Source of the DNA: Pomacea canaliculata
Taxonomy: Eukaryota; Mollusca; Gastropoda; Architaenioglossa; Ampullariidae
NCBI RefSeq assembly: GCF_003073045.1
Contig: NC_037592.1
Coordinates: forward strand, 12,614,007-12,678,006
DNA length: 64,000 nt
Direction: 5' to 3'
A program made the position numbers and the translations under genes. Below, in pieces: positions 11,480-62,637 of the stretch; positions within the stretch are counted from its first letter, which is position 1; each line of letters opens with the position of its first letter. The notes below the pieces were generated by a model, which searched no databases, was not told the origin of the DNA, and was given only the letters and a program-made list of their open reading frames with translations.

Positions 11480-14173
11480 CTACTTCTCCCGACACAAACT
11501 GTGTATCTGCTCTCTAAACTTTGACCCCATGACGTAGTACACACAGAAATGGACTGAGGAGCGAACTCCGCGACACGCGAGAACAATATACCAAACCGTA
11601 AAGTTGACAGTAATGTACATCCTGGTGGAATACAGCTCTTGTAGGACAAGAGAAAATATCTGAACACCAATATTGGGCATCACACAGATGAGAAAGAGAA
11701 CTGAGGTCCCGATCAACATCCGGGTTACTGCCATCTCTTTACTCGACATACTAGAACCGAGATGTTCAGTCTTCTGTGTCCCAGTCGTCATGTTTGTCAT
11801 CGACTTTCTTTTTTTAACAGCTGCATTGAGTTTCATTGCTGTAATGGTAGTGCACATCCCTATGACAATGTAGAACGTGGTTGGTAGCACTGTCGAGTAG
11901 ATAATAATATCGAAAATGTCAAGGATTTTCTTGTTGTCCATATAGTACCTGAAAAATGACACAACTATTTCATTAAATAGGTTTTTGCTGAACTCCTGTT
12001 TAAATACACCACAAAAGTGCTCGTGATGGTAGTTTTAATTAATGATAACCTGTTTGCTTGCTTTCAGACTTACCTGATTAAATGCTGTCTACATGGTTAC
12101 ATGCCACTTAGGTAACTTGAATGATCTAACATAGGTTTTGCGAAAAGTACAAAGAGAGAACTGTAAGGATTACTTTTTATTGATGTGTTAGTGTACCTGT
12201 AAGAAAAGATATCAAACCAAAAGCAAGAAAAACAAACACTATTTGTTATCTTCGCAGAAGAGAAGAAGTTAAGGATGGAAACTAGTTTAAGATAAAGGCA
12301 CGCCTCGTGAAAAAATGTAACACACAGTAAAATAATAAATACCTGCTTATAAAGAAATTACGAAACGTTGATTATCCACAGAGATTATTTCAAAACATTT
12401 TTGTCTGTGATGTAACACGTTATACTTTGTTAAGACCGCGTTTTAGTATCAAATATGTCTTAGAAGATGGTCTATGATATGATGTTAAAATTGTTTAAAC
12501 CTTTTCTTTAAAATATGTTTACTTTTGAAGTATTTATCTTTGGCCTAAAATGTATGTCTCAGAAATATCTTGTATAATCAGAGTTTCCGTTCCGCTCACT
12601 CCTAATTCTCATTGTTGACACACCTATTTCTTGTACCTTTGATTGTCGGTTCATTTCTAGTCATCGGTGTCAGCGCACTGAGTTCAAATCCACATATTCT
12701 ACTTTACATATCCTACTTTTTGCTGGTTCCCAGTCACTTAATCCCCAGACACTTCATCCCCGACACTTCATCCCCGACACTTCATCCCCTAGACTTTTAA
12801 TCCCCAGACACTTAATCCCTAAACTAAATCCTTAACTATAAAAATTATGAAGTCAGCGAAAAATTTAATTGAAATTCAAATTCAAATCATGCTATTAACT
12901 TCAACGTCATTTGAACATCTACAACATTAGTTAAAGTTCATATAAGCTAGTAAATTTAATGTTCTTCAACAATATGATATGAAAATTGTTCTTGAGTGTC
13001 GGGGATGAAGTGTCGGGGATTAAGTGTCTGGGGATTAAAAGTCTCGGGGATGAAGTGTCGGGGATGAAGTGTCGGGGATGAAGTGTCTGGGGATTAAGTG
13101 ACCGGACACCCTTTTTGCTATTTTGTGACGTGGCCAATACCCTTACTGTGTCAAAGTTACGAAGGACCTGGTGATGTTGGCAGACGGATCGTACATAAAA
13201 CTGATGGTTTGCTTGGGAATCATGATAGCACACATCCCGGCCATCAGAACGACGCAGCAGACGACAACAATGGCGGTCATGGTGGACGTCTTCAGCAGCC
13301 GCTTGGCGTGGAGGGGACTGACGACACAGAAACAGCGCTCACAGGCGATGACAGCCGACAGCAACTGAGAGGCCCACTCGACGCTGATTAAACCTGCATC
13401 AGTAACGATATGCAGTTCTCTAATGTTTATTACTTATTAAGTGAAAAAACTCATGTTTAGTATTAAATGATTGTAAGTCACACAGAAAATAAAAATAACT
13501 ACTAGGTTTGCATATCCTTGACTTTGCAAAACTGAAAACAAAAAAGAATGTCTGTAAAGTCAAAAAAATTCTAGCATTTCTAAGACTTACTTTAAAAAAA
13601 AATAAAAAAAGAAGACAGCTAAAGATCATCGCAAGCACTCACCTCCCAAATAGGTTATTGTGAACCAGGTGTCTGGACTAACGTGTTTTCTCACTCGGTC
13701 CTCGACAAACACGAGAAGCAGGATGACGACGTTGACGAGGTCAGCCAGCGCCAGGAGGAAGAGACAGACGTTGATTCTCTCTCCAAGACCCTGTCTGTAG
13801 AACACCATGGCGCTCACCACGTTGCCGGGGATTCCAAGGAACAGAAGAAAGGGAATCATGAACCAGCACATGGCCGCCATGATGATCTCGTAAATCTTGA
13901 TAGGACACAGATAAAACTTCGCAAACTGAGGCATAAGATAAAATAAAAGAAAAATGCGTTAGCTAACAACAATAATGCTCAAATATAACACTAAATTGTA
14001 AAGCTGATGTTATGCATTGTTGCTATATGTTGTTGTTGTTGTTGTCTTACTTCAGCAGATAAAATGTTCGTCTCATAGTTGGACAGCTGTAAATTTGTGG
14101 TTGTGAAGCAACTCTCAGTGGCGTTTTCCCATGGTTTCAGATCCGATGATATGTTGTCTAACATGGGTTCCAT
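11480..14173 (-). CDS. Class A (rhodopsin-like) 7TM receptor, copy A, 4 exons
   Basis: Exons: 14173-14051, 13895-13643, 13393-13147, 11948-11480; intron phases 0, 1, 2; 363 residues. Residues 1-41 are the extracellular N-terminus with an N-glycosylation site (NISS). TM1 (about 44-72) carries GIPGN with N66, TM2 has LALAD with D93, and TM3 ends in Glu144-Arg145-Cys146 (the DRY position). TM4 ends exon 3. ECL2 has the site NIT. Exon 4 holds TM5 (YSTVLP), a basic third loop, TM6 (ICVMP) and TM7, where NPxxY is replaced by HFCVY, then SKFRE as helix 8. Family knowledge places it among G protein-coupled receptors of the plasma membrane. Mollusc-type chemosensory or peptide receptors are the nearest style; the ligand is unknown. 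Exon 2 is taken to start after a tract ending 'cctatcaag', conserved in all copies; in A an upstream 'ctcag' would add 10 residues in frame. Intron 3 holds an inserted inverted-repeat element (12725-13111). Confidence 0.88.
12725..13111. mobile_element. Palindromic non-autonomous DNA transposon built of ~15-bp repeats, in intron 3 of receptor A
   Basis: Left arm about 12725-12822 and right arm about 12992-13111 are inverted copies. Each consists of alternating units such as CACTTAATCCCCAGA and CACTTCATCCCCGA. The outer ends read GGTTCCCAGTCACTTAATCC (left) and, on the opposite strand, GGGTGTCCGGTCACTTAATC (right). It is flanked by a perfect 8-bp direct repeat TTTTTGCT (12717-12724, 13112-13119). 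Paralogous introns (around 37705 and 43099) show the uninterrupted site. The AT-rich middle has no coding frame. The 8-bp target repeat would fit hAT, P or Merlin types; the superfamily is undecided. Confidence 0.8.
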
Positions 14174-16185
14174 GCCTGTCAGTGATGTCGCATAGAAAGA
14201 CAACCAAGTAGCATGTCTTTCACTTTTACTACACAAAGTGCTCTCCCCGTAAAGTAATGTTTAATTCAGATACGGAATCCTCCCAGGTACTAAGACGCTA
14301 AATGATCTGAAGAAGTGTTTGTAACCAACAATGAATCCCATCAGCTGGTTTCTGGTAGCTCGAGGCAAATTGTTATCAGAGTCACAGGCAAGTATGTGAA
14401 CTACCATCACTTTTATCTGCTTCTTCTAAGTTAATATACATCAGTTAATAATAAAGAGCAAACACTGTAACTATCGCTTGGATAATTAAACAATATTACA
14501 AGGAAATTGGGGAAATACGAAAATCCCATGTAGCGATTGATCACTTAAGTATAGAGAAATGTCAAGAACGTAGGTTTAAAGGATTTTTACTGATGACATA
14601 CGTTGATTCCTGTAAGAACATTTAATTATAGAGGTTTCTGTACAAGGAGAAACTGTCAAGGTGCAGCCCTTGTTTTTTTAATCTCAATTAAAACAAAATA
14701 ATTTCATGTGGAAGAAGTATAATTCTACATATATCCTTTGATGTAACTACGATTGTAGGCATTTTTACAGCAAAATTATATAAAACAAATAGCTAAAAAA
14801 TATTAATAACTGCATAGGTTATGTGGAAAATAAAATAATATATTTGTATATGTGTTGTCCTGCATTAATGGGCATGGTGCTTGTATACTTGTGCACGCGA
14901 TCGTTCATAAACATGGCATTTAATTAGTAGCTCATCCTGTCTTCTACTAGATAGTCGGTTTGAGTCACAGTGTTTCGTTTCTTCCTTCACTATTGGTCGG
15001 TTAGATGTTCTCTGCAGGTTTGCCTTCTGGGCGCAGATGTAACTGTTTACCTCTACTAGCCACGTCAATAGAACAAAAATTTTTCCTTTGTTTAAGGTAA
15101 GTACGAAATTTCTCTGTTTCATTGCTGCCCTAAATGATTGGGAGGACCTGGAGACGCAACCCATGATTAATTAACAGTAAAGTAACATGTTGGGAGGATG
15201 TCTGTAAGGTGGACCAGAGAATCTTTGAGTGTATGTTCTGAAAGCTGGCTGGTCATCTGCTATCCTGGTCACGTGGGCGCTTGTCTGTCTGCTGATGGAT
15301 GCCAGGGAGACCTACTCATGGCGTCAGGACCCACGTGATAGCACACGTGATGGTTCTCGCTCATAGTAAGGGACATGTGTTACAACTGCCTAACCATATT
15401 GAGTCTTTTGAGACAGCTTTCCCCTCTTCGTCATCAGGAGGACCTTTTCGTGTGACATAAGAGGAGAGAACTACAATTACAGCAACAGTGCTGACATGAT
15501 GGCCCAGTCTTGGTCGGACATGGTCTATAAATGGCGCCCACGTATGATGATACACTCTTGTCGCATCATTTGATTTGACCACATTGGACAAATCTCGATA
15601 CGACCACAAACCTTTTGTGTAAATGTACACATAATAAATTTATTAGTAAATGTGGATGTAATCACAAATTTACTATTAAACTGGATTTTCGTAGAAAATA
15701 TGGATCACATATATACTGGAGAGATGTGCGTGTGGCAAGGGAAGTAACAAGTGAGGCACTAAGACGATCCATAGAGAACTACAGAATTCCACTGATTCAC
15801 AATAATAAATGAATAACTATTTTTGGATTACAGTTATTAAAAATATGTAGTTGTACAAGTATTTCAATCGGTTTAAGGTTTGATCCACTTCATCATTGCC
15901 AGCCTTAACATAAAGACAGTTGCCTTCCATGTAGACAGTCGCTCAACTCCTTCACATTCTTTCTTTATCTTTCACAGCAGACATTGCATGATTAAAATTA
16001 TGACTTTGACCATAATGTACGCTGGCACATTAACTTGTATATTATCTTTTTATTTTCGTTTTCTGTTTCTCTCAACCCTGCCCAGCCCTGTCGATTCATT
16101 TCGAAAACTTAAGAAAACCTCTTATACTCAATTAAAATCACAATACGGTCACGAAATAAATGTTTTTGTTGACAATTGCAAAATG

Positions 16186-18558: not shown

Positions 18559-19645
18559 CTAGGAGTCTACAGAGAATTTGACTCGTGAGGCATCACTAAT
18601 AAAAAATGTTCTTCCGCTGCAGACACTGTGTACATATTCTCTAAACTTTGACCCCATGATGTAGTACACACAGAAATGGACTGAGGACCGGACTCCGCGA
18701 CACGTGTGAACAACATACCAGAGTGCAAAGTTTAGAGTAAAGTACATACTGGTGGAATTTAACTCTTGTAGGAGAAGAGAAAATATCGCAACACCAATGT
18801 TGGGTAACCCACAGATGAGAAAGAGAACAGAGGTCCCGATCAACATACGGGTTACTGCCATCTCTTTACTCGACATACTAGTACCGAGATGTTCAGTCTT
18901 CTGTGTCCCAGTCGTCACGTTTGTCATCGACCTTCTCTGTTTGACAGCTGCTTGTAGTTTGATGGCGGTAATGGTAGTGCACATCCCTATGACGATGTAG
19001 AAAGTTACAGGTATCACCGTGGAGTAGATAATGATGTCAAAAATGTCTGTGATTTTCTTGTTCTCCATATAGTACCTGTTAAATGATAAAAAAGGTATTT
19101 CACCAAGTATTCTTTTACTGTACTTACGTTTGATTATATTACCAATATTTTCCTTATTATAATTTTTAGTCAATAATAATTTGTTTTCTACTTTTAGACT
19201 TACTTTGTCACTGTCAGGAAGTACTTGGTGATGTTAGCAGTCGAATCGTACATGGAGCCGATGGTGTGTTTGGGAACCACGATAACCAACATCCCTGCCA
19301 TCAGCACGACACAGCAGACGACAACAATGGCGGTCATGGTGGACGTCTTCAGCAGCCGCTTGGCGTGGAGGGGACTGACGACACAGAAACAGCGCTCACA
19401 GGCGATGACAGCCGACAGGAACTGAGAGGCCCACTCGGCGCTGATTACACCTAAATTAGCAAAATATGCAATCTTTTGATGTTTATAACTAACTCGAAAA
19501 TAGATCGTATTTATTGGTAAATTATTGTACGTTAAGAATATTGTCAAAATATTTAATAAGCTTGTATGTCATGATTGTCTAAGACTCAGAAAAAAAATTC
19601 TTTTAAGTTAAGAGGCATTGACTTTCTAACATTTCTAATACCTAC

Positions 19646-19676
<31 letters not shown>

Positions 19677-22947: not shown

Positions 22948-22989
<42 letters not shown>
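22948..22989. repeat. AAC microsatellite
   Basis: Fourteen uninterrupted AAC triplets between the LINE fragment and receptor C. Confidence 0.9.
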
Positions 22990-23039
22990 AAATGATGATG
23001 TGAGCTTGTATAGTTTACACACCGCCTGAAGACAGGCTC

Positions 23040-23594: not shown

Positions 23595-26417
23595 CTAAAT
23601 AAGTAGACAGAAACTGTGTACATATTCTCTAAACTTTGACCCCATGATGTAGTACACACAGAAATGGACTGACGAGCGGACTCCGCGAGACATGTGGACA
23701 AAATACCAAAGTGCAATGTTTAGAGTAAGGTACAACCTGGTGGAATTGAACTCCTGTAGGAGAAGAGAAAAGATCTGAATACCAATAGTGGGCATCACAC
23801 AGATGAGAAAGAGAACAGATGTCCCGATCAACATCCGGGTTACTGCCATCTCTTTACTCGACATACTAGTACCGAGATGTTCAGTCTTCTGTGTCCCAGT
23901 CGTCACGTTTGTCATCGACTTTCTCTGTTTGACAGCTGCTTGTAGTTTGATGGTGGTAATGGAGGTGCAGATTAATATGGCGATGAAGAAAATTATTGGT
24001 AGCACCGTGGAGTAGATAATTATGTCGAAAATGTCGATTATTTTCTTGTTATCCATATAGTACCTGAGAAATGAAAAACTTTTATTTTGTTAATATACAA
24101 TTATTTTCAAACTTTACCTATGGAATGCCTTCTACATGGCATATATACGTTCAAAGTAATAATATAGGCTTTACGAAATGTGGTTACAGCAAAGCACACA
24201 TACATTATATTTATCTTTAAACATACGTTGAAGTAAAATATAAAACAATGGGAACCTACGCAAACAATAGGTACGCTGTTTTCCAAATGACCAAGTTTCA
24301 TTATGCCTAATGACAAGAATGAACAAAGAAACATGAAAAGTATCTAATTAAAAAAAAATATTGGACGTTGATTTTCGGCTAAGACTGTTTTAAACAATTC
24401 TTCTCAGTGATGTAACTCGTCCTATTTTGTTAAGGAAAAATCTTACTTTAGGACGTTACAGGTGTCATGCCAAATGTTCAACTACTCTGGATTTCTTTTA
24501 CCTTTTTCTCGAACTGTGTCTTTTAGATCAAGCCTTAAAACCGATAAGATATTTTAAGAAATATTTTGCATAATCAAAGTTACTATTCTATCTGTTCCTT
24601 AATTCATCATCCATGCACCTTTAGTCATTGTCCTCTCTTTGCTTACGCTTATGTTCATCCTATCGATGACTGTCGGTTCGTTTGTAGTCTTTCGTGTGTA
24701 GCGCATTGAGTTCGAGTCCATACAGGAGAAAGTACTCTGCAAAACATACTAATATTTATGACCAGTTCTCTTACTTTGTAACTGTAAAGTAAGACTTCGT
24801 AATGTTTGCAGTCCGATCGTAGATAAAGCCGACGGTGTGTTTGGGAACGACGATAACAAACATCCCTGCCATCAGCACGACACAGCAGACGACAACAATG
24901 GCGGTCATGGTGGACGTCTTCAGCAGCCGCTTGGCGTGGAGGGGACTGACGACACAGAAACAGCGCTCACAGGCGATGACAGCCGACAGCAACTGAGAGG
25001 CCCACTCGGCGCTGGTTAAACCTACATCAGTGAAAATACACAGTCCTCTGATGTTTAGTACCCATTAAGTGGAATATATCGTGTTCCTTTATAAATCATT
25101 GTTTGCCAATAAGACGAGTATATCTAATAGGCTGTACGACCCACAAAAGAGAACGTTCTGTCTAGTCAAAGGGCTTTGACATTGTAAGTGCTACGTCACT
25201 AAACAATAAATAGTAAATAATAATCACTATCACTTACCTCCCAACCAGATTGCTATGAACCAGGTGTCTGGACTAACATGTTTCCTAACTCGGTCCTCGA
25301 CATACATAAGGAACAGGATGAGGACGCTGACGAGGTCAGCCAGCGCCAGGAGGAAGAGACAGACGTTGATTCTCTCTCCAAGACCCTGTCTGTAGAACAC
25401 CATGACGCTCACCACGTTGCCAGGGATTCCCAGGAACAGCAGAAACGGAATCATGAACCAGCAGATGACCGCCATGAGGATCTCATAAATCTTGACAAGA
25501 GAAAAGTACAGGTCAGGCGCCACCAATGAGTGGAAATATTTCAAAAAAGACACAAGTGGTAATGAATTAAAAAATAAAATAGGCTAACCTAGGAATAGGA
25601 AAAAAAGAAATCACTAGTGTAGTTGAGGATTGGTTTACTTCATTTGTATTGTTTTGCTCAAAATTAAAAAAAAAACACATTTTTTTTCTTGGTTTGAAAC
25701 TTAAAGGGGGTCAAGGACATGGACAAGCGAGATAATCTATTTACAAACAACAAGAACAAATGAGTGAATGTTAAAGACAAATCCAAAATCAGACATTAAG
25801 AAGCACTGTACTCTGTTATGGTAGTGTTTTTATTTTTGTACAGCACATTGAGTCTGTTCTATAATAGAGATATGCGCTATATAAATATGCTTATTATTAT
25901 TTAAATGCTATTTAACATCAAGCAAACTCACACGAGAGGCTCAAAAGGAGTTTGCGAAGATTTGAATTAGGAGAATTAAAGAAAGGCACAAAAGAAAGCA
26001 CAGAATATGCTCCACTAACCTGAGTTTAACGGCAAGAAAATTAATTTGTTTCTTATTCTTTTTTCAAAAGTATGATGACACGGTAGAGAAAAGTCTGCGA
26101 AAGTGTTTACAAGCACAAAACAAGAATTCACAAATCAACAACTAAAAACACTGTATTGCAGTCATTACGAGATAATAGTTATAAAGCGAAATGCGTTTCA
26201 TTAGCTCAGATATAAGCATGACTAAGTACTTAGCCACATGTAATGAACATTTAATATTATGTTCAATGTAATACAATATTTACTGTTGTCTTACTTCAGC
26301 AGATAAAATGCTTGATTCATCTTCATATACCATTGAACCTATGGTTGTGACCAGACTGTCCCTGATGTCTTTCCGTGGTGGCGGATCCGTTGAACTAATA
26401 TCTAACATGAGTTCCAT
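23595..26417 (-). CDS. Class A 7TM receptor, copy C, 4 exons
   Basis: Exons: 26417-26295, 25490-25238, 25021-24775, 24063-23595; 363 residues. The plan is as in copy A. Exon 1 (41 codons) opens MELMLDISS and then diverges (DPPPRKDIRD), ending in the shared ILSAE before the donor. Exon 2 shows conservative changes in TM1-TM2 (VVSVMVF; LVSVLILFL). The ERC motif, the NIT site in ECL2, ICVMP in TM6 and HFCVYY in TM7 are kept. The C-terminus ends SFCLLI. Intron 1 (804 bp) includes a short LINE tail (25836-25910); intron 3 is 711 bp. Donor of exon 2 is GTAAGT where A and B have GTGAGT. Confidence 0.87.
25836..25910 (+). mobile_element. L2-like LINE 3' tail
   Basis: Within intron 1 of receptor C. 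The motif 'gcgctatataaatatgcttattattatt', preceded by 'cagcacattgagtctg', is the usual 3' end of L2/CR1-type LINEs with its TTA repeat tail. Only the 3'-most end is present, typical of 5'-truncated insertions. Confidence 0.55.
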
Positions 26418-30814: not shown

Positions 30815-30848
<34 letters not shown>

Positions 30849-31334: not shown

Positions 31335-33746
31335 CTATTTTCTCCCAGTCCACAGACAGAAACTGTGTACATGCTCTCTGAACTTTGACCCCATAATGTA
31401 ATACACACAGAAATGGACTGAGGAGCGGACTCCGCGACACATGCTAGCAAAATACCACACCACAAAAATTATATTAGTCAAGTACATGCTGATGGAATTG
31501 AATACTTGCAGGAAAAGAGAAACAATCTGAATACCAATAGTGGGCATCACACAGATGAGAAAGAGAACAGAGGTCCCGATCAACATCCGGGTTACTGCCA
31601 CCTCTTTACTCGATATACTAGTACCGAGATGCTGAGTCCTTTTTGCCTCAGTCGTCACGTATATCATCGCCTTTCTCTGTTTGACAGCTGCTTGTAGTTT
31701 CACGGAGGTAACGGAGGTGCAGATCGCTATGGTAATAAAGAAAGTGATTGGTAGTACCGTAGAGTAGATAATGATGTCGAAAATGTCGATGATTTTCCTG
31801 TTATCCATGTAGTACCTAAAAATAGAAAATCTATTTCTTCAAGTACTCTTTTACTGTACTTACGAATATTTTGAGTAATTTTTAACTTGGGAAAAGTGTT
31901 AGCTACTTTCAGACTTGACCGACTGAATTCTCAAAACCCATCTCTATAAGACATGTCTCGCGTATCAAGGTCGTATTCTACCCAATAGTCAGATCTTTAT
32001 CTAGGTGTATTTTGCCATGGTGTTATCTGTTATCTATGCTTATAATCATTATATGGCTGATAGTCGGTTTGTTTGTAGTCTCTAGTGTGCAGTGCACTGA
32101 GATCGTGTCCACACAGAAAATGCATTTTACAAATCATTTTGTGATGTGACCAATAACCTTACTTTGTTACTGTAAGGAAAGACTTTGTGATGTTGGCAGA
32201 CGGATCGTACATAAAACTGATTTCGTGTTTGGAAATCACGATAACACACATCCCTGCCACCAGCACGACACAGCAGACGACAACAATGGCGGTCATGGTG
32301 GACGTCTTCAGCAGCCGCTTGGCGTGGAGGGGACTGACGACACAGAAACAGCGCTCACAGGCGATGACAGCCGACAGGAATTGAGAAACCCACTCTCCGC
32401 TGGTTAAACCTACATCAGTAACGATGCACAATCCTTGAATTTTCATAACTCATTAGCTAACGAGACATCATGCTTAGTAATAAACCACTGTACGTTTGGA
32501 AGATGATTTAAAGGCTTGTATATCTTTGATTATTGCAGTCTGAGAGACTCACTAAAACTGATGTCTGTCAAGTCATACGGCAGTGATTTTTAAAAAATTT
32601 CTCCGACTCACTAGCAAAACATGCAATGAGAAGGAAATATTGCAAAGACCCACCTTCAAAATAAATTGTAAACCAGGTGTCTCGATTAACATGTTTCCTC
32701 ACTCGTTCCTCACAATACACAAGGCAGAGCAGGACGACGTTGACGAGGTCAGCCAGCGCCAGGAGGAAGAGACAGACGTTGATTCTCTCTCCAAGACCCT
32801 GTCTGTAGAACACCATGGCGCTCACCACGTTGCCAGGGATTCCCAGGAACAGAAGAAAGGGAATCATGAGCCAGCACATGGCCGCCATGAGGATCTCATA
32901 AATCTTGATAGGACAAAATTAATGTCAGTTTCACGTAAAAGGTCTTAAATTTGACTTAATGTTAGAGTGTGGAAAACTTAGTTCTCTTTGATTATTGGAT
33001 TCTCATATACTTTTAAATAGTTTATCAAATAAAGCCAACAAACTCTATCAGATCACCGACCTGCTGTCGCTGTCAAGAAGGAGAAAAGATAAAAATCCAC
33101 ACACATATCAGTTTGTGTGGAAACCAAGTTCATATTTCTCCGATCTATTGCTTCATGGAATACAGAATTCATGACTAATGAAATAGAAGATAAAATGATG
33201 AGTGAACTTAGTGATAGGAGGAAAAGAAGAAGGAAAAGAACACATTAAATAAGTGCAGTACCGATTTGATTATTTGGCTGAAAATCGAACAGATGTTTTT
33301 TATTTTGCTCTTCCTTTGAAACGTACGAGGTCAGAGACAGGAACAAGCAGGTAAAGCTATTTATAAACAAACAAAAAAAAGACAGGAAGTTACAAACATA
33401 TACAACAAAAGACATAAAAAAACAACAACATTGTACTCCGTCATTCTTGTGTACTTCAAGATAATAAATATGTTTCAAAATAATGCAGTGCGATTGAACA
33501 GAAAGAGAAAAGCCTGCGAAAGTAAAATAAATAACGAAATGCGTTTAATTAGCTTAGAAATAATACATCACATACATGACTAAGTACTGTGTAATATGTA
33601 AATTGACTTTCTTAGCTAGCGGTAGATCATTTAAGTTATTGTTGTCTTACTTCATCAGACAGAATGTTTGACTCACTCAACAGACTGTCCCTGAAGTCTT
33701 CCCATGGTTCCAAAGTCGTGGAATTGCTGTCTAACACAGGGTACAT
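31335..33746 (-). CDS. Class A 7TM receptor, copy D, 4 exons
   Basis: Exons: 33746-33651, 32903-32654, 32409-32163, 31815-31335; 357 residues. The plan is as in copy A, with the shortest N-terminus (32 codons, MYPVLDSNSTTLEPW) and one codon fewer in ECL1 (end of exon 2, IYFEG). Exon 4 is more divergent in the third loop (AMIYVTTEAKRTQHL) and in TM7's approach, and ends LWTGRK. The donor of exon 2 is GTGGGT, weaker than in other copies but canonical at GT. Exon 3 reads SGEWVSQF before the constant SAVIACERC core. An NST glycosylation site is in the N-terminus and NIT in ECL2. Open throughout. Confidence 0.86.
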
Positions 33747-36714: not shown

Positions 36715-39700
36715 CTAGTTCACAGACAGAAACGCGTGTACATGCTCTCTGAACTTTGACCCCATAATGTAATACACACAGAAATGGACTGAGGAGCGGA
36801 CTCCGCGACACATGTAGATAATATACCACAGCGAAATGTTGAGAGTAAAGTACAAGCTGGTGGAATTTAACTCCTGTACGAGAAGAGAAAAGATCTGAAC
36901 ACCAATATTGGGCATCACACAGATGAGAAAGAGAACAGATATCCCGATCAACATCCGGGTTACTGCCACCTCTTTACTCGACATACTAGTACCGAGATGT
37001 TCAGTCTTCTGTGTCCCAGTCGTCACGTTTGTCATCGACTTTCTCTGTTTGACAGCTGCTTGTAGTTTGATGGCGGTAATGGTGGTGCATATCGCTATGG
37101 TTATAAAGAAAGTGATTGGTAGTATCGTAGAGTAGATCATGATGTCAAAAATGTCGGTGATTTTTTTGTTATCCATATAGTACCTGAAATGATAAAGAAA
37201 GGTATTCATAAAGTAGTCTTTTACTGTACTCACATTTTAAATTTTATTTCTCACATTACAAATGTTTTGTCGTACGTTAAAGGTAAAGATAGTAAACGAG
37301 AAACAAGGTAACAAAAGTTATTTGGTGTGTTGACAATAGAAAGTATAGGACGGAAAATCCTTCTTCATAGGTTTGTCGCGTATCGTCACAAAATGTACTG
37401 AGAGACAAAATACCTTTCTGTACATTAAAAATTACGAAACGTTATTACATATACTATTACTTTGTTAAGAAGTCTTTAAGACTTTTCTCTAAAATGTATT
37501 AAATTTGTCTTCAAAGATGGAATCAAAACTAATTTGTTGAAAAATATCTTGCATAATCTAAATTACCGTTCCTTCCACTTCTCAATCTGGTTTTTGACTC
37601 CTTTGTTCCTTGTACGTTTAACAATCGGTTTGTTCCTATTCATTGGTGTGCAGCGCATTCAGTTCGAATTAACACATGATAAATGTTCTTTACATATTTT
37701 ACTTTTGCTATTTTGTGATGGGACCAAAACCCTTACTGTGTCACTGCCAGGAAGGACCTGGTGATGTTGGCAGACGGATCGTGCATAAAACCGACGGTGA
37801 GCTTAGAAGTAATAATAAAACACATCCCTGCCATCAACACGACACAGCAGACGACAACAATGGCGGTCATGGTGGACGTCTTCAGCAGCCGCTTGGCGTG
37901 GAGGGGACTGACGACACAGAAACAGCGCTCACAGGCGATGACAGCCGACAGGAAGTGAGAGGCCCACTCGACGCTTCTTACACCTACATCAGTAACATCA
38001 GTAACGATACACAGGCCTTTGATATCTATAACTCTTTAACTGGAAAAAATTATGCTTAGTCGAAAATCGTCATTCGTTACAATCATGAAAGTTATTTATT
38101 TGTCGAACTATTTATTTACCTGAAATGGTCAGTTGCATTTAGAAAATTCATAGAGAAAGAAGGAATTTCTAAAACGTTTCGAAAACTCTGTCAGAAAGAA
38201 AGCGATAGATAAGAATTGTCAACACTCACTCCCCAAATAGATTGCTATGAACCAGGTGTCTGGACTGACATGCTTCCTCACTCGGTTCTCGACATACAAC
38301 AGAAGCAGGATGACGACGTTGACGAGGTCAGCCAGCGCCAGGAGGAAGAGACAGACGTTGATTCTCTCTCCAAGACCCTGTCTGTAGAACACCATGGCGC
38401 TCACCACGTTGCCAGGGATTCCCAGGAACAGAAGAATAGGAATACTGAGCCAGCAGGTGACCGCCATGAGGATCTCATAAATCTTGATGAGACAAAAGAA
38501 GAGGTCTGTGTGTGAGCGTAGAGACGTAAAATGAAAAGAAGTTACAATAGTCACTTGTTAGTGTATTTAACATCCAGGGCAACGAATTTAAATTGGGTCA
38601 GGAATGTTGCTAGTTCTTTTCTTATTTCTGATAACATAATTAAGACATAATATAAACAATTTGTGTACTTAAGTTACAGTGTAAGTAGCTCGTCATATAA
38701 AGCCAACAAACTGTATCATTGACCTGCTGTCACTATCAGGAAAAAGAAACGAGATGTAACTAAACACATAGATCAACATGTGTTTAAGGCAAGTAACGGG
38801 AATCGTTTCAAAAAAAAAAAAAAAAAATCTAAGCCTCACCCATAGTTGAGAAAAGTCAAAGTTGTGATAGCACACTACAAATCTTATTGAAAATAGAAAA
38901 TCTAATACAAGTTTCTATTTTACTTTGTTGCACGTGAGGCTCATTAAAGATGAAAGGTAGTCCAACATATCTAGAAATGGACAGAACAGAGGCACGAGCA
39001 GTCATAAAATATCTGCAAAAGAAAGGTATGACACCCAAGGAAATCCATGAGGACACTTGCTGAGGACTCCCCTTCCTGAGCAACTGTGAAGAAGTGGGCT
39101 GCTGAATTCAATCATGACAGGGTCAGCACAGAAGATGTCCCTCGGTCTGATAGTCCAAGAACCTCAGTCATTGATGAAAAACAAAAACAAATAGGAAGGA
39201 ACAATGCATAAGAATAAACACAACTGCAGGAATCAGTCAAGTCAAAGCTCAGAGGGAAGCTGAGGGCAGGTCTTGCTTAAGGTTAACGCGCCCGTTCACT
39301 TTGCTCAGGTTGCAGTATCTCAAACAATCAACTGTGGCCTTACCATCCCCCTCACTCACTATACTTAGCTCCGTCTGACTTTTACCATTTTCCTAAACTC
39401 ATACCCAAACGACGTGGTCGTAATTTTGGAAACGATGATGACGTCATATGTACTGTGGAGGAGTTTTTGATGGTCCAGGATGCCACCTTCTTCCATAATG
39501 GGATTGCAATACTTCAGCATCGTTAGACCAGCTGCATTGATGTCAAGGAGGACTAAATAAAATAAGTGTGAAAAACTGTCTTGTTTCTTCAACTCCTTCT
39601 GGGTGAGGCTTAGAACATTTTGAACGACCCTCGTGATATTGCTGCCATGTCGGTTACTGAACCTTTCCGTTTTCGAGATACTCTCGTGAACAAATATCAT

Positions 39701-42618: not shown

Positions 42619-43242
42619 CTAGTCCACAGACAGAAACGTGTGTACAAGTTCTCTGAACTTTAACCCCATAATGTAATACACACAGAAATGCACCGAGGAG
42701 CGCACTCCGTGACACGTGTAGACAACATACCACAGCGAAATGTTGAGAGTAAAGAACAAGCTGGTGGAATTTAATTCTTGTAGGAGAAGAGAAAAGATCT
42801 GAATACCAATAGTGGGCATCACACAGATGAGAAAGAGAACAGAGGTCCCGATCAACATACGGGTTTGTTAAGAAGTCTTTAAACCTTTTCTCTAAAATGT
42901 ATTAAATTTTTCTTCAAACCTGGAATCAATTAATTTGCTTACCAAATATCTTCCATAATCTAAATTACCGTTTCTTCCACTCCTCAATCAGCTTATTGAC
43001 GCGTTTGTTCTTTGTACGTTTAATAATCGTTTTTTTTTCTATTCCTTGGTGTACGTTGACTTCGAATAAACACAGGATAAATGTGCTTTACACATCCTAC
43101 TTTTGCTATTTTGTGATGTGACCTATACCCTTACTTTGTCACTGTCAGGAAGGACATCGTGGTGTTGGCAGACGGATCGTACATAAAGCCGACGGTGTGT
43201 TTGGTAATCACGATAACACACATCCCTGCCACCAGCACGACA
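42619..43242 (-). pseudogene. Receptor fragment F (broken 7TM receptor copy)
   Basis: Two pieces remain. 42619-42866 matches the last ~80 codons of exon 4 (TM6-TM7, from MLIGTS to the stop, ending TFLSVD). About 43135-43242 matches the 3' third of exon 3 (ECL2, with its donor site). The TM5 part of exon 4 with the intron 3 acceptor is deleted, so the sequence jumps at about 42866 into intron 3 sequence. The rest of exon 3, exon 2 and exon 1 are missing: at about 43243 the sequence switches to a 3'-flank type also seen at 48140. The remaining TM7 reads SSVHFCVYYIMGLKFRE. It cannot encode a receptor. Confidence 0.88.
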
Positions 43243-43757: not shown

Positions 43758-46386
43758 CTAGTCCACAGACAGAAAGGTGTGTACCTGTTCTCTGAACTTT
43801 GACCCCATAATGTAATACACACAGAAATGGACTGAGGAGCGGACTACGTGACACATGTAGACAACATTCCACAGGGAAATGTTGAGAGTAAAGTACAAGC
43901 TGGTGGAATTTAACTCTTGTAGGAGAAGAGAAAATATCTGAACACCAATAGTGGGCATCACACAGATGAGAAAGAGAACAGAGGTCCCGATCAACATCCG
44001 GGTTACTGCCATCTCTTTACTCGACATACTAGTAACGAGATGTTCAGTCTTCTGTGTCTCAGTCGTCACGTTTGTCATCGACTTTCTCTGTTTGACAGCT
44101 GCTTGTAGTTTGATGGCGGTAATGGAGGTGCATATCGCTATGATGATGAAGAAAGTGATTGGTAGTACTGTAGAGTAAATAATGATGTCGAAAATGTCGA
44201 TGATGCTCTTGTTATCCATATAGTACCTGAAATGATAAAGAAAGGTATTCATAAAGTAGTTTTTTAAGGTACCCACACCTTAAATTTTATTTCTCACATT
44301 ACAAATGTTTTGTCGTACATTAAAGTAAGAGATAATAAGAAACAAGGTAGAAAAGTTATTAGGTGTGTTAACACAAGAAAGAATAGGACAGAAAATCCTT
44401 TTTCCAATGTTTGTCGCGTATCGTCACAAAATGTACTTAGAGATATAAAACCTATCTGTACATTAAAAATACGAAACGCTCATTATTACTCATACCTAAA
44501 CTTTGGTAAGAAGTCTTTAAACTTTTTCTCTAAAATGTATTAAATTTTTCTTCAAACGTGGAATCAATTAGTTTGCTTATAAAACATCTTGCATAATCTA
44601 AATTACCGTTTCTTCCCCTCCTCAATCAGCTTTGTACGTTTAACAGTTGGTTTGTTTCTATTCTTTGGTGTACATTGACTTGGAATAAACACAGGATAAA
44701 TGTGCTTTACACATCCTACTTTTGCTATTTGTACTTACTTTGTGACTGTCAGGAAGGACCTGGTGATGTTGGCAGACGGATCGTACATAAAGCCGACGGT
44801 GTGTTTGGAAACCACGATAGCAAACATCCCTACCATCAGCACGACACAGCAGACGACAACAATGGCGGTCATGGTGGACGTCTTCAGCAGCCGCTTGGCG
44901 TGGAGGGGACTGACGACACAGAAACAGCGCTCACAGGCGATGACAGCCGACAGGAACTGAGAGGCCCACTCGACGCTTCTTACACCTACATCAGCAACCA
45001 TTCACAGTCGTCTGATATTTCCAATGGTAAAAAATCATGCTTATTCGTTACAATTATGAAAAGTTATTTATTTATCGAACTGAATATTTACCTTAAATGT
45101 ACAGTTGCATTTGTTAAAACTCACATAGAAAGAAGAAATTTCTGTCAAATCAAATGGCATTGACCTAAAACATTTCGAAAACTTCATCAGAAAGAACGCG
45201 ATAGATAAGAATTGTCAACACTCACTCCCCAAGTAGTTTGCTATGAACCAGGCGTCTGGACTGATGTGTTTTCTCACTCGGTTCTCGACATAAATAAGAA
45301 GCAGGATGACGACGTTGACGAGGTCAGCCAGCGCCAGGAGGAAGAGACAGACGTTGATTCTCTCTCCAAGACCCTGTCTGTAGAACACCATGGCACTCAC
45401 CACGTTGCCAGGTACTCCCAGAAGCATAAGAATAGGAATCATGAGCCAGCAGATGACCGCCATGAGGATCTCATAAATCTTGATAGGACAAAAGAAGATG
45501 TCGGTGTGTGAGCCTAGAGAAGTAAAATGGACCTACAGCAGTAATGTTGTTAGTGCATTCAACATCCAGGGACACGAATTTAAATTGGGTCAGGAATGTT
45601 GGTAGTTCCTTTCTTATTTCTGATAACATAATTAAGACATTATACAATCAATTTCTGTACTTAAGTGACAGTGTGAGTAGTTTGTGATGTAAAGCCAAAA
45701 ACTGTACCTTATCATTGATCTGTTGAAGCAGAAGAGAGATGTAACTACACACATACATCAACATGTCTTTAAGGCTAAATACGAGAATCCAAAATGGTAT
45801 TGCGATACTTGAGCATCGTTAGACCAAGTGGAAGGAGGACTAAACAGAATCAGTGTGAAAAACTGTCTTGTTTCTTCAACTCCGCCTGAGTGAGGCTTAG
45901 AACATTTTGAAGGACTCTCGTAACATTGCTTTTATGTCCGTTACTGAAACTTTCCGTTCTCGAGATACACTCGTGGAAACATAGCAACACAGTAAGGAGC
46001 CTACAAAATAGACAGTAGGATGGTGCATAAAAAAATTTACACTTCGATAACAGCTGATCTGGAAACATCGTAATAATGAGGCACATGTCGCCCTGCTAAT
46101 TTGGTCGTCTGTAGTTGTAGGCTGTCATAAGAAAATAGTCTTGTATCGAGTTTTTCTACACATCTAGGAAATAAATAAATAAATAAATACTTAGCCACGT
46201 GTAGTAGTGAACTTCGCATCTTGTGCTATATTATTTATGTTATTGTTGTTTTCTTACTTCTTCAGAAAGAATGTTTGTTTCATGTCCAGAAGACGTTGAA
46301 TTTGAGGCTGTCAATACACTATCAATGTATTCCCATCGTTCCACATTTGTTACATTCATGCTTAACAGGGATTCTATTTCTTTCAT
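43758..46386 (-). CDS. Class A 7TM receptor, copy G, 4 exons
   Basis: Exons: 46386-46258, 45478-45226, 44985-44739, 44226-43758; 365 residues. Exon 1 has 43 codons, opening MKEIESLLSMN, and ends SEE where others have SAE. TM1 carries unusual changes (MIPILMLLGVPGN). Exon 4 has CHVVRSSVHFCVYY in place of CRGVRSS, and LVTSMSS in the third loop; otherwise the ERC, NIT, ICVMP and HFCVY features are kept. The last residues are TFLSVD. Intron 1 (779 bp) carries a short mariner remnant. It is adjacent to the broken copy F on its 3' side. Confidence 0.86.
45795..45897 (+). mobile_element. mariner remnant, 3' end, in intron 1 of receptor G
   Basis: Matches the last ~100 bp of the mariner element in receptor E, including the end of the transposase (NGIAILEHR) and the right terminal repeat '...gagtgaggct' followed by TA. 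The left part is deleted. Same place and orientation as in E, so it was inherited by duplication. Confidence 0.75.
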
Positions 46387-49928: not shown

Positions 49929-52510
49929 CTAGTCCACAGACAGAAACGTGTGTACATGCTCTCTGAACTTTGACCCCATAATGTAATACACACAGAAATG
50001 GACTGAGGAGCGGACTCCACGACACATAAAGACAAAATACCAGAGTGCAGCGTTTAGAGTAAAGTACAAGCTGGTGGAATTTAACTCCTGTAGCAGAAGT
50101 GAAAAGATCTGAATACCAATAGTGGGCATCACACAGAAGAGAAAGAGAACAGAGGTCCCGATCAACATCCGGGTTACTGCCATCTCTTTACTCGACATAC
50201 TAGTACCGAGATGTTCAGTCTTTTTTGTCCCAGTCGTCACGTTTGTCATCGACCTCCTCTGTTTGACGGCTGCTTGTAGTTTGATGGCGGTAATGGAGGT
50301 ACAGATCGCTATGGTAATAAAGAAAGTAATTGGTAGTACCGTGGAGTAGATAATGATGTCGAAAATGTCGATGATTTTTTTGTTATCCATATAGTACCTG
50401 AAATAATAAAGAAAGGTGTTAATAAAGTAGTCTTTCTTGTGCTCATATTTTAAATTATATTTTTTACATTACAAGTGTTTGTCATACGTTAAAGCAGAAG
50501 ATAATAAACGAGAAAAAAAGGCAACAAAAGTTATTTGGTGTGTTAACAAAAGAAAATATAGAAGGTTTGTCGCATATCGTCACAAAATGTACTGTGAGAA
50601 ATGATACCTGTCTGCACATTAAACAAATACGAAACGTTGGTTATTACATATACATTAACTTTGTTTACAAGTCTAAAACCTTTTTATTTAAAATGTGTTT
50701 AAATATGTCTTCAAACATGTCATCAAAACTAAACTCTTAAAAATATCTTGAATAATCTAGCTAAACCTTCCATTCCTCAATCTGCTTATTGTCGCCTTTG
50801 TTTCTGGTATTTTTGACCATCGGTTTGTTTCTATTCTTTAGTGTGCAGTGCATTGACTTCGAATGAACACAGAAGAAATGCGTTTACATATCCGACTATT
50901 GTGATGTGACCAATATTCTTACTTTGTCACTGTCAGGAAGGACCTGGTGATGTTGGCAGACGGATCGTAGATGGAGCCTACTGTGAGCTTAGAAGTCACG
51001 ATAAAACACATCCCTGCCACCAGCACGACACAGCAGACGACAACAATGGCGGTCATGGTGGACGTCTTCAGCAGCCGCTTGGCGTGGAGGGGACTGACGA
51101 CACAGAAACAGCGCTCACAGGCGATGACAGCCGACAGCAACTGAGAGGCCCACTCGGCGCCGCTTACACCTACGATATACAGTCCTCTGATGTTTATAAC
51201 AGCTTAACGGAAAAAAGTAATGCTTAGTCGTAAATCATTATTCGTTAAAAAATCAAAAGTTATTCATTCATATACTAGTCATAAATGGACATTTGGCAGA
51301 ACTTACAAAGAAAGAAGGAACTTCGTCGAAATCAAATGGCTTTGACTGGAATATTTCTAAAACTCCGTCAGCAAAAGCGCGATAGATAAGAATTGTCAAC
51401 ACTCACTATCCGAATAGATTGTTATGAACCAAGTGTCTGGACTGATGTGTTTTCTCACTCGGTCCACGACATTCATAAGAAGCAGGACGACGACGTTGAC
51501 GAGGTCAGCCTGCGCCAGGAGGAAGAGACAGACATTGATTCTCTCTCCAAGACCCTGTCTGTAGAACACCATGGTACTCAATACGTTGCCGGGGATTCCC
51601 AGGAACAGAAGAAACGGAATCATCAACCAGCATATGACCGCCATGATGATCTCATAGATCTTGATAAGACAAAAGATGTCGGTGTGTGAGCCTAGAGACG
51701 TAAAATGAAGTTACAGCAGTCAAGTTGTTAGTGCATTCGTCATCCAAGGCAACGGCTGTGATTTTAAATCAGGTCGGGAGTGTTGGAAGCTCTTTTCTTA
51801 TTTCTGATACTTTAAGTAGCAAATTATACAATCAATTTCTTTACTTAGGTTATAGTGTAAATAGTTCATTACATAAAGCCAAAAAACATCCAAGCCTCAC
51901 CCATAGTTGAGAAAAGCCATAGTTGTGGTAACAAACTGTCTTGTTTTTTTCAACTCCTGGGTGAGGCTTAGAACATTTTGAACGACCATCGTGATATTGC
52001 TGCCATGTCAGTTACTGAACCTTTCCGTTTTCGAGATACATTCGTGGAATATAGCATACTGAGAATGAAACCTACAAAATAGACAGAAGGATGGTTCGTG
52101 AAAACATTTACACTGCGATAACAGCTGATGAAAGATCTGGAAACAGTAATAATGAGGTACATGGCGCCCTCACCATTTTCTCATCTTTAGGTGTCGGGCT
52201 GGTTGTATGCTGTCATGAGAAAATAGTCTTGTACCGAGCTGTTCTACTCCCCTGGGAATATATATATATATATGTTTGATTTGCTTAGACGTCACATAAA
52301 CGACTAAGTACTATAAAGCCACGTGTAATACTGAACTTCGCATCTTGTATATTATTTATGTTATTGTTGTTGTCTTACTTCAGCAGATAGAATGTTTGAT
52401 TCACTATCAGAAAGTGTTGAATTTGAGGGTGTGAATACACTCTCACTGTAGTATTCCCATCGTTCCACATTCGTTAAATTGATGGTTAACAAGGATTCCA
52501 TTTCTTTCAT
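49929..52510 (-). CDS. Class A 7TM receptor, copy H, 4 exons
   Basis: Exons: 52510-52379, 51659-51407, 51169-50923, 50397-49929; 366 residues. The 44-codon exon 1 opens MKEMESLL, with NLTN and NSTLS. TM2 has LAQAD instead of LALAD and keeps the Asp. The end of exon 2 reads IYSD, then the Ser junction codon shared with E, G and I. The first exon 3 residues are VSGAEWASQL. The third loop reads TGTKKTEHL. TM6 begins LFCVMP. A second ATG two codons after the first is also possible as start. Intron 1 keeps only both ends of the mariner element (51893-51968). Confidence 0.87.
51893..51968 (+). mobile_element. mariner end-to-end deletion remnant in intron 1 of receptor H
   Basis: Left terminal repeat 'agcctcacccatagttgag' and right repeat '...ctcctgggtgaggct' are joined by about 30 bp, with the transposase lost. 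Position and flanks match the elements in E and I ('tagaacattttgaacgacc' on the right). One TA boundary has changed to CA. Confidence 0.75.

Positions 52511-53113: not shown

Positions 53114-53115
<2 letters not shown>

Positions 53116-53144
<29 letters not shown>
53116..53144. repeat. GT dinucleotide repeat
   Basis: Uninterrupted GT run in the 5' flank of receptor H. The matching position in units E and G has little or no such repeat. Confidence 0.85.
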
Positions 53145-53147
<3 letters not shown>

Positions 53148-58640: not shown

Positions 58641-59505
58641 ACAAAATAATCAGTTATAACTGTTTTTAACTGTACAGACAAGGAAGTTACCAGAGATAAC
58701 AATTATTATACTGTTTTCAACTACAGCCTTATTGGTCCGTATTATAAATTCATGTACTGAATTTGTATCCTATGACTCATAGAACCTCTTTGATCATACA
58801 TCTGCCGTAATCAATCATTTATTTATTTATTCTCGCCGATCCAATAGTCCTCGTCTAAAATCTATCTTTACCAATAATCATGACATTCTCATCGACCAGT
58901 CCATCCTAACTGATTGATTCTTTTTCATCCATCATCAAGCTAACAAAAACTCACCGATTCTTCTAAAGTATAGTTCACAGTAAACCATCTAAGATATATA
59001 AAAACAGACATAGCGATCACTTATTCTTGAAGATCGATAGCTTTATGTCTTAATTTTTTTTCTGTCATTGTTGATCCATTCATGTTTGTGATTCATCAAA
59101 GTTTAAAGACCAGTAGACCCTTTTACCTAGCATTTACCATCCACAAGTACTCTTAACACAAGGAGAGCTTCAGCTAATGAAATTACGAAGAGGTTAAAAA
59201 TTTCAGTAAGTGATATGTGAGAGATATATTATATAGACACTAGTACAAAATCTGTTTTTTTTATTTAGGGATAATACGCTGTTGTTGTTACGAAGTGTAT
59301 TTTGTCTAAAAATTCTGTCTTGTAGCCTTATTACAATCAAGATATTCTTCGCAGATCTTACATCCAAGTATCCCCAAATGTCAGAGATAAACAGATATTT
59401 CTATTAACTAACTGAAAGGCATTGTAAGTGAATACAGTTTGGGAGTGCACAAACAGTTTGATTCTCTTGCCACCTCACTAAATGAAGTTTTCGCTCGACG
59501 TTTCA

Positions 59506-62500
59506 CTAGTTCACAGACAGAAACGTGTGTATAAGCTCTCTAAACTTTGACCCCATAATGTAATACACACAGAAATGGACTGAGGAGCGGACTCCACGAC
59601 ACATAAAGACAAAACACCACAATGCCACGTTTAGAGTAAAGTACAAGCTGGTGGAATTTAACTCCTGTAGGAGAAGAGAAAAGATCTGAATACCAATAGT
59701 GGGCATCACACAGATGAGAAAGAGAACAGAGGTCCCGATCAACATCCGGGTTACTGCCATCTCTTTACTCGACATACTAGTACCGAGATGTTCAGTCTTC
59801 TGTGTCCCAGTCGTCATGTTTGTCATCGACTTTCTCTGTTTGACAGCTGCTTGTAGTTTGATGGCGGTAACGGAGGTGCATATCGCTATGGTAATAAAGA
59901 AAGTGATTGGTAGTACCGTTGAGTAGATAATGATGTCAAAAATGTCGATAATTTTTTTGTTTTCCATATAGTACCTGAAATGTTAAATAAAAGTATTCAT
60001 CAAGTTGTCTTTTACTGTTCTGAAATTTTAAAGAAAATTTTTCTCTCATTTCAAATGTTTTTCAGTAGTTAATTTTCCAAGGTTTGTCACGTATCGTCAT
60101 AAAATGTACTTGATACCTATCTGCATCTTAAAAAAATTCGAAACATTGATTACAATGTACATCGTAACTTTGTTAAGAAATCTTTAACCCCTTTATTTAC
60201 AGAAAATGTTTCTGTTTGTCTTCAAACATGGAATCAAAACTAAACTGTTTAAAAACTATCTTGCGTAATCTAAATTACCATTCCCTCCACTCCTCGATCT
60301 GCTTATTGAAGCCTTTGTTTCATATACGTTTAACAGTCGGTTTGTTTCTATTCTTTAGTATGCAGTGCATTGACTTCGAATGAACACAGAAGAAATGCGC
60401 TTTACATATCCGACTATTGCTATTTTGTGACGTGATTAATACCCTTACTTTGTCACTGTCAGGAAGGACCTGGTGATGTTGGCAGAGGGATCGTACATGA
60501 AGCCGACGGTGTGTTTTGGAGCAGAGATAACAAACATTCCTCCAACCAGAATGACACAGCAGACGACAACAATGGCGGTCATGGTGGACGTCTTCAGCAG
60601 CCGCTTTGCGTGGAGGGGACTGACGACACAGAAACAGCGCTCACAGGCGATGACAGCCGACAGCAACTGAGAGGCCCACTCGGCGCTGGTAAAGCCTAAA
60701 TCAGTAACGATACAGTGTCCTCTGATGTTTATAACTCTTTAACTGCATAAAGCACGCCTAGTCGTAAATCATTATTTCTTACGAAGATGAATTATATATC
60801 GAAATATATATTAGACTGTAATGGACAGTAAGATCGAGCGCAACTCACAAAAAAGAAGGAATTTCTATGAAATCAAATGGCGTTGACATAAAACATTTCT
60901 AAAACTCCATCACAAAAAACGCGATGAAAAAGAATTGTCAACACTCACTCCCCGAATAGGCTGTTATGAACCAGGTGTCTGGACTGATATGTTTTCTCAC
61001 TCGGTCCACGACATTCATAAGAAGCAAGATGACGACGTTGACGAGGTCAGCCAGCGCCAGGATGAAAAGACAGACATTGATTCTCTCTCCAAGACCCTGT
61101 CTGTAGAACACCATGGCGCTCAGCACGTTGCCGGGGATTCCCAGGAACAGAAGAAACGGAATCATGAGCCAGCAGATGACCGCCATGAGGATCTCATAAA
61201 TCTTGATAAGACAAAAGAAGATGTCGGTGTGTGAAGCCCAAGAGGTAAAATGAAAAGAAGTTACAGTAGTCACGTTGTTAGTGCATTCGTCATCCAGGGA
61301 AACGGTCACGAATTCAATTGGTTTAGGAATTTTTTAAGCTTTTTTCTTATGTCAGATCATATATGTAGGACATCATATAATCAATTTGTGCACTTCAGTT
61401 ATCTTGTAGTGAGTAAGTCATACAAAGCCAACAAACTGTATCTGATCATTGACCTGCTGTCACTATCAAGAAACAGAAAAGAGATTTAACTACACACATA
61501 AATCAACATGTGTTCAAGGCAAGATACGGGGATCGTTCAAAAAGATCTAAGCCTCACCCATAGTTGAGAAAAGCCCTAGTTGTGGTAAAACACTACCACT
61601 TCTCGGTCAGGTAGTCCAAGAACCTCAATCACTGATGAAAAAGAAAAACAAGTATTAATGGAAGGTACTATGCATCAGAAAGAACACAGCTGGAGGAATC
61701 AGTCAAGTCAAAGCTCAGAGAGAAGCTGAGGGCAGGCGTGCTCTTGCTCCAGGTTAACGCGCCCATTTTTGCTCAGGTTGCAGTAGCTCAAACAACCAAC
61801 TGTGGCTTTGAAGTGCCTCCCCCTCCCCCCCCCACTCACTATACTTAGCTCCGTCTGACTTTTTCCTGTTTCCTAAACTCATATCCAACCGACGTGAACG
61901 TCATTTTGGAAACGATGATGACGTCATATGTTGTTGTGGAGGAGTTTATGATGGTTCAGGATGCCACCTTCTTCCATAAAAGGATTGCAATACTTCAGCA
62001 TCGTTAGACCAAGTTCATTGATTTCAAGAAAGACTAAATAGAATAAGTGTGACAAACTGTCTTGTTTGGTCAACTCCACCATGGTGAGGCCTCGAACATT
62101 TTGAACGACCCTCGTGATATTGCTGCCATGTCAGTTACTGAACCTTTCCGTTTTCGAGATAAACTCGTAGAAACATAGCATACGGAGAATAAAACCTACA
62201 CAATAGACAGTAGGATCGTGCGTGAAAACATTTAAACTGCGAAGACAGCCGATGAAAGATCTGGAAACAGTAATAATGAAGTACATGTTGCCCTCACAGT
62301 TTTCTCGTCTGTAGGTGTCTAGGGATGAGTGTATGGTGTCATGAGAAAAAAGTCTTTTACGTAGCTTTTCTACACCATTGGAAAAATCTATCAATAAATA
62401 AATCTGATTAGCTCAGACGTCACATAAATGACTAAGTGCTAAGTCACTTGTAATACGGAGCTTTGAATGTTTGGTATATTATTTATGTTATTGTTCTTGT

Positions 62501-62637
62501 CTTACTTCAACAGATAGAATGTTTGACTCATGACCAGAAAGTGTTGAATTTGAAGCTGTAGAAACACTCTCAGTGTAGTATTCCCATCGTTCCACATTCG
62601 TTAAATTGATGGTTAACAAGGATTCCATTTCTTTCAT
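59506..62637 (-). CDS. Class A 7TM receptor, copy I, 4 exons
   Basis: Exons: 62637-62506, 61201-60949, 60695-60449, 59974-59506; 366 residues. The 44-codon exon 1 opens MKEMESLL and carries NLTN and NSTLS; it ends SVE at the donor. The junction Ser codon is split A|GC here (A|GT in E, G and H), a silent change across the splice site. TM2 reads LFILALAD. ECL2 and TM4 differ slightly (VILVGGMFVISAP). Exon 4 ends TFLSVN. Intron 1 (1304 bp) holds a mariner remnant (61550-62091). It is the last gene of the array in this window; its 5' flank continues to about 63600. Confidence 0.87.
61550..62091 (+). mobile_element. mariner remnant in intron 1 of receptor I
   Basis: Same insertion as in receptor E: left repeat 'agcctcacccatagttgag' after TA, transposase pieces around LAPSD and RIAILQHR, right repeat '...accatggtgaggc'. 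It is internally deleted further than in E (the N-terminal part is missing). The right TA has mutated. Confidence 0.8.

Follow-up and report, generated by a model that had tools for sequence, protein, structure and literature searches.

How can receptor genes that have drifted apart along most of their length share one short coding segment with hardly a difference, even at silent sites? The question is raised by a 64-kb stretch of the Pomacea canaliculata genome (C3:12614007-12678006; the window), whose minus strand carries eight open four-exon genes for seven-transmembrane (7TM) receptors and one gene fragment, as modelled exon by exon from splice sites and homology. A search of 440,159,624 bases of genome shows that the window holds eight of the 25 places of an array spread over ~171 kb of C3, and that a sister array lies on C13. 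In both arrays, a block of about 100 nt within exon 3, running from the end of transmembrane segment 3 (TM3) to the start of TM4, is nearly uniform among copies of the same array and has diverged DNA on both sides. We consider it probable that the block is kept uniform by short-tract gene conversion that recurs within each array.

The gene models g1-g8 have introns of phase 0, 1 and 2 with GT-AG ends, a single terminal stop and products of 357-379 amino acids, with exon joins that are predictions from sequence. An earlier note on this DNA had claimed eight same-strand four-exon genes with these phases and open frames, and all eight models match it. Its outer limits, 11480 and 62637, are exact to the base, its one fragment was found at 42622-43241, and the intergenic DNA it described as duplicated does align between copies upstream of exon 2, at ~65-94% identity and in pieces. 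The same note called the array recently expanded. The expansion stands and the recency is only loosely right, with a median synonymous divergence (dS) of 0.25 over exons 2-4 (19 C3 copies, 171 pairs) and a median difference of 40% in intron 2 among the eight window genes; its count of eight was correct for the window and understated the array as a whole. The uniform block in exon 3 does not figure in that note. Based on the hydropathy of g8, exon 2 encodes TM1-2, exon 3 TM3-4 and exon 4 TM5-7, a layout for which we partly presume the usual landmarks. Exon 1, looked at in the eight window genes only, encodes a short N-terminus, which in g8 has two N-glycosylation sequons. The genes and the fragment are as follows.

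11480..14173, minus strand: receptor gene g1, exons 14173-14051, 13895-13643, 13393-13147 and 11948-11480, 363 aa
18559..20224, minus strand: receptor gene g2, exons 20224-20102, 19960-19708, 19450-19204 and 19075-18559, 379 aa
23595..26417, minus strand: receptor gene g3, exons 26417-26295, 25490-25238, 25021-24775 and 24063-23595, 363 aa
31335..33746, minus strand: receptor gene g4, exons 33746-33651, 32903-32654, 32409-32163 and 31815-31335, 357 aa
36715..40132, minus strand: receptor gene g5, exons 40132-40001, 38482-38230, 37983-37737 and 37183-36715, 366 aa
43758..46386, minus strand: receptor gene g6, exons 46386-46258, 45478-45226, 44985-44739 and 44226-43758, 365 aa
49929..52510, minus strand: receptor gene g7, exons 52510-52379, 51659-51407, 51169-50923 and 50397-49929, 366 aa
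59506..62637, minus strand: receptor gene g8, exons 62637-62506, 61201-60949, 60695-60449 and 59974-59506, 366 aa
42622..43241, minus strand: gene fragment, end of exon 3 at 43098-43241 and second half of exon 4 at 42622-42864

Beyond the window, exon 4 matches from a protein search of the snail's own genome continue on C3 to at least 12.80 Mb, all on the minus strand, such protein-search listings being lower bounds. Used as a DNA query, a 114-nt block found the 25 places on C3 and 15 on C13, and 17 of the 25 are identical across all 114 nt. We read 24 of the C3 places, the 25th being known from search matches only. Nineteen are open over exons 2-4 and four are broken (L015, L022, L026 and L037); sets of 19 copies leave out these four and L030, whose exon 2 lies outside its stretch. 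Two of the 19, L021 and L024, have unusual intron 2 donors (GTGATT and GTCAGT). Decayed exon 4 pieces resembling the window fragment lie 3' of the intact copies L011, L013, L014, L018, L019 and L024, and may be relics of earlier copies.

Among the 19 open C3 copies, silent diversity is near zero between the last part of TM3 and the first part of TM4. It is also low at intracellular loop 1 and the start of TM2 and, less so, at loop 3 and the start of TM6. Since windows computed by the Nei-Gojobori method (NG86) overstate silent divergence at codons that also change amino acid, the test was redone at invariant-amino-acid codons and at fourfold sites. At the invariant codons, the cytoplasmic side has a silent diversity of 0.052 (89 codons) and the outer side one of 0.175 (46 codons; p = 1.4e-5); blocks 1 and 2 taken together have 0.014 (52 codons), compared with 0.143 elsewhere (83 codons; p = 4.4e-8). 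The exon 3 block is identical even in the broken copies L015, L037 and L026, with one difference in L022. Trees built from the 5' and 3' parts of the 19 copies disagree (approximately unbiased (AU) test, 7.4e-22 and 1.2e-11). As for selection on the outer parts, the ratio of nonsynonymous to synonymous differences (pN/pS) is mostly 0.2-0.9 across windows, and the three values that are at least 1 or undefined sit in or beside the blocks that are nearly invariant at silent sites, so we do not claim positive selection. The blocks in the window are as follows.

13254..13361, minus strand: block B2 of g1 (exon 3; end of TM3, the motif ERC, intracellular loop 2, start of TM4)
19311..19418, minus strand: block B2 of g2
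24882..24989, minus strand: block B2 of g3
32270..32377, minus strand: block B2 of g4
37844..37951, minus strand: block B2 of g5
44846..44953, minus strand: block B2 of g6
51030..51137, minus strand: block B2 of g7
60556..60663, minus strand: block B2 of g8
61064..61114, minus strand: block B1 of g8, covering intracellular loop 1 and the start of TM2, with counterparts at that position in g1-g7; silent diversity is low in C3 only

The block was seen first in C3 and then tested in C13, in 12 stretches besides L039. The C13 array has 15 places over 0.49 Mb, eight on one strand and seven on the other, and 13 of them were read. Over the first 99 nt of the block, copies differ by 0.0043 within C3 (19 copies) and 0.0085 within C13 (13 copies), compared with 0.109 between arrays. 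The 60 nt next to the block differ by 0.208 within C3, 0.445 within C13 and 0.473 between arrays, so that this DNA has diverged within C13 almost as far as between the two arrays; the intron beside the C13 block gives no gap-free alignment (0.71). In an analysis by codon, within-C13 and between-array differences are 0.009 versus 0.097 for the block and 0.42 versus 0.48 for the remainder of exon 3. The ratio of the two is 0.085 (0-0.25) for the block and 0.88 (0.79-0.97) for the remainder, with ranges from codon resampling.

Array membership, rather than descent, also accounts for the version of the block that a gene carries. L055-L057 lie in C13, and the protein tree joins them to C3 at 100/100 whether the block is included or not, yet their block is of C13 type at 10 of 10 sites fixed between C3 and C13. 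On a 15-taxon tree, counted without L030 and the C13 stretches L050, L051 and L054, the block needs 16 changes, of which 10 are the fixed C3/C13 differences and four fall at one silent site. Parsimony puts the 10 fixed differences on the C3 stem, which makes up 0.75 of a tree length of 6.02 (binomial 3.5e-6). The GC content at third codon positions (GC3) is raised in the block in both arrays, at 0.785 versus 0.639 for the rest in C3 (Wilcoxon 1.3e-4) and 0.862 versus 0.599 in C13 (2.4e-4).

Other receptor arrays, considered as further cases, show no dip at the corresponding segment. In intronless copies on C4 (six copies, five of them informative, the frame of L062 being without the block; L062 and L063 look broken), the difference at same-amino-acid codons is 0.201 in the block versus 0.159-0.165 beside it, while the C3 values are 0.013 versus 0.164-0.191. 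The C4 block as a query gave partial matches only, at 73-92%, at 10 other C4 places. Six copies each from arrays on C14 and C11 likewise lack a dip at the loop-2 segment. These two arrays, at C11:10.60-10.99 Mb and C14:4.18-4.99 Mb (L065-L076), are large and match the Pfam family 7tm_1, with open frames mostly of ~660-730 aa. The six C11 copies have near-zero silent differences over much of the domain and more at DRY/loop 2 and TM5, the opposite of C3.

Two of the eight window proteins were scanned against Pfam, and both match 7tm_1 (E = 2.9e-10 and 6.4e-10; 39.4 and 40.5 bits versus a curated cut-off of 30.5). The hydropathy of g8 gives seven hydrophobic spans which, with a DRY-like motif, are features of class A G-protein-coupled receptors (GPCRs). 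Nematode Srx and Srg identities were rejected, with Srx at 22.0 and 14.6 bits against a cut-off of 23.8 and Srg at 10.8 against 22, and the same scan of two proteins gave no match row for Srw. The best solved structure is the metabolite receptor HCAR1 (E = 0.0067), a weak match in which ERC aligns with the DRY of HCAR1 and the block with its DRY and loop 2. The description in the earlier note, an expanded 7TM receptor subfamily, therefore holds, and in the Pfam and structure searches no receptor whose ligand is known matched closely. ERC stands at the end of TM3 in 19 of 19 modelled C3 copies and 13 of 13 C13 stretches.

The arrays are likely class A receptors of molluscan ERC type with a chemosensory role, because their relatives are mostly intronless and carry the ERC motif of the Aplysia candidate chemoreceptors; chemosensory use and G-protein coupling are what we infer from sequence. 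If they were instead internal receptors for peptides or transmitters, class A membership, short loops and the nearness of HCAR1 would be expected. Set against this are the 25 and 15 tandem copies, the variable outer parts and the ERC motif, as in the candidate chemoreceptors of Aplysia and Biomphalaria, and we regard such an internal role as unlikely.

Single-frame relatives of 341-472 aa were found on C1, C4, C6, C11 and C12, at 30-37% identity among the matches listed, and ERC is present in all 10 relatives examined. All 13 C13 stretches have their intron 2 acceptor at the C3 site, and 12 of the 13 show a gap at intron 3. The tree recovers C3 as a clade (94.4/90) and C3 plus L055-L057 as another (100/100). 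Support for grouping all the three-intron genes together is weak (48.6/68, and 38/62 when the block is removed), and they lie among the single-frame relatives, which leaves unsupported the earlier suggestion that three introns mark a separate family. One relative, L040 (C5:1223701-1227700), apparently has one intron, in the first outer loop and by eye at a different site and phase from the C3 introns. The Cys of extracellular loop 2 is in 12 of 13 relatives and missing in the five C3 rows compared and in C13 rows L039 and L053. At the end of TM7, the relatives have NF in place of the NP of the NPxxY motif; at what we take to be this position in the C3 copies, most have HF, L011 and L016 have YF and the outermost copy, L030, has NF. 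Two open frames rich in acidic residues lie beside and inside the array, at 7342-8373 (plus strand) and 56183-56659 (plus strand), without Pfam match, and a Pfam scan of six other window frames gave no match.

We propose that duplication produced the copies, which would then have diverged mostly at their extracellular and pocket-side parts. Short-tract gene conversion among members of one array would repeatedly overwrite the ~100-nt block for the G-protein-facing segment, and in C3 two more cytoplasmic blocks (loop 1/TM2 start and, more weakly, loop 3/TM6 start) appear to follow the same trend. Purifying selection on the coupling surface may keep the block DNA alike enough to pair. Conversion could then wipe out even silent differences, while diverged flanks would no longer pair, and the result would be receptors in which a variable sensor is coupled to a constant transducer. 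Gene conversion fits best because the block is homogenised by array and not by descent, in both orientations and with raised GC3, and because the 5' and 3' trees conflict. With C13 copies on both strands, unequal crossing-over alone would be insufficient.

Several points weigh against gene conversion as the sole explanation. Block 1, tried as a second homogenised block in C13, is not one (0.175 within versus 0.212 between; seven of 13 stretches hold it). Between arrays, same-amino-acid codons differ by 0.208 in the block and by 0.524 elsewhere in exon 3, which requires a contribution from constraint or from older exchange between arrays. The block border falls at roughly the same codon in both arrays, as functional constraint would give, and this agreement again suggests that constraint contributes. 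It was the C3 data themselves that served to pick the blocks in the first place, and the contrast in C3 is weak when fourfold sites are taken by themselves (0.045 versus 0.108, p = 0.046). The AU conflict shows recombination between C3 copies and does not fix its position within the gene. No conversion tract with its donor was identified, there being too few variable sites inside the block. The fixed differences could also have arisen if the C3 stem went through a burst of rapid change and the block was then frozen. Finally, the data are one assembly, corrected with short reads.

Borders that are sharp and coincide between the two arrays, and the lower divergence of the block even between arrays (0.208 versus 0.524), would also be expected if selection acted on the DNA or RNA itself without conversion, for example because the exon holds a regulatory element used in receptor choice or is targeted by a small RNA. 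Constant constraint of this kind, however, predicts within-C13 differences near those between arrays, as seen elsewhere in exon 3; the block departs from this (0.009 versus 0.097). L055-L057 track array membership and not descent, and the C4, C14 and C11 relatives have a similar protein segment without such uniformity. We therefore find an element of this sort distinctly improbable. An assembly artefact, in which short-read correction wrote a single version of the block over many genes, would be consistent with the published methods, as far as the accessible text gives them: correction with Illumina reads (Pilon on BWA-MEM alignments) and a heterozygosity of 1-2%. The same text gives read lengths of 150-250 bp (accessions PE125, PE150), which are longer than the block, so that most reads extend into diverged flank. 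The two arrays moreover retain distinct versions that differ at 10 fixed sites, and C4 copies of similar divergence were not flattened, which makes an artefact very improbable. That the copies are young, the block shows their true age and the flanks changed very fast would suit the mostly intact frames (19 of 24 C3 copies read) and is hardly credible given the 40% difference in intron 2 among window genes, the C13 intron that gives no gap-free alignment and a pN/pS below 1 in nearly all windows with adequate silent diversity.

Returning to gene conversion, a more specific form can be suggested only tentatively, and we think it rather doubtful: very short-tract, orientation-independent conversion of one ~100-nt segment may keep a constant transducer module, in a constant/variable split like that of immune receptors. 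Recurrence at one place with fixed borders would point to a sequence-directed hotspot.

Both the receptors and the homogenisation have known counterparts. As published, the Aplysia californica AcCRa-c proteins are of rhodopsin type, with 319-433 aa, clustered genes and a variable N-terminus, and ERC replaces DRY, with Cys two residues on (PMC2700072). AcCRb is intronless, AcCRc has 0 introns and AcCRa has one, at ISLM95/GLAV (PMC2700072). The window genes resemble this description in their 7TM type, ERC, clustering and variable N-terminus, and not in its chiefly single-exon plan: the AcCRa intron falls, by eye, in TM2, where the window genes have none. With three introns at other places, we call them AcCR-like rather than members of AcCR, a comparison made with the published description. 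The freshwater snail Biomphalaria glabrata has 241 clustered candidate chemosensory 7TM genes in 14 subfamilies, one of them shown in tentacles (PMC5440852); the likeness is again one of description, and a homogenised block is not mentioned in the part of that account available.

Regional gene conversion is described for protocadherins of fugu (PMC1852091) and anole (PMC2764143). In the available accounts, paralogs of the same subcluster share near-identical DNA in one part, with a discrete border and raised GC3, while the recognition part is diverse. The snail arrays share the silent-site collapse with discrete borders (at fourfold sites alone, p = 0.046), homogenisation within clusters only and raised GC3. 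However, the protocadherin region is a long 3' part of one exon (residues 332-777 in one group), whereas the snail block covers ~100 nt within a GPCR exon, is flanked on either side by diverged DNA and occurs in copies of opposite orientation. Vertebrate odorant and V1R clusters recombine between tandem paralogs (PMC1995454, PMC2644715), as described there giving mosaic genes or conversion of the whole coding region rather than a fixed cytoplasmic block. We found no chemoreceptor array with a homogenised loop-2 block in the open-access literature searched, most subscription papers lying outside that scope, and the accessible text of the P. canaliculata genome paper (PMC6129957) mentions neither GPCR nor chemoreceptor. 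Within this limited literature, the comparison suggests that regional conversion is already known from protocadherins and that a short homogenised block in chemoreceptor arrays is apparently new.

Trees and dS values from such arrays should be read with caution, as they blend two histories. Large chemoreceptor families must alter sensing without losing signalling, and here the putative G-protein-facing part appears, as DNA, to be uncoupled from the remainder. Should conversion indeed be the agent, these arrays could show how short a convertible tract between old paralogs can be, and would offer a test of whether selection on coupling drives conversion and of how far a fixed loop 2 frees the other parts of the receptor.

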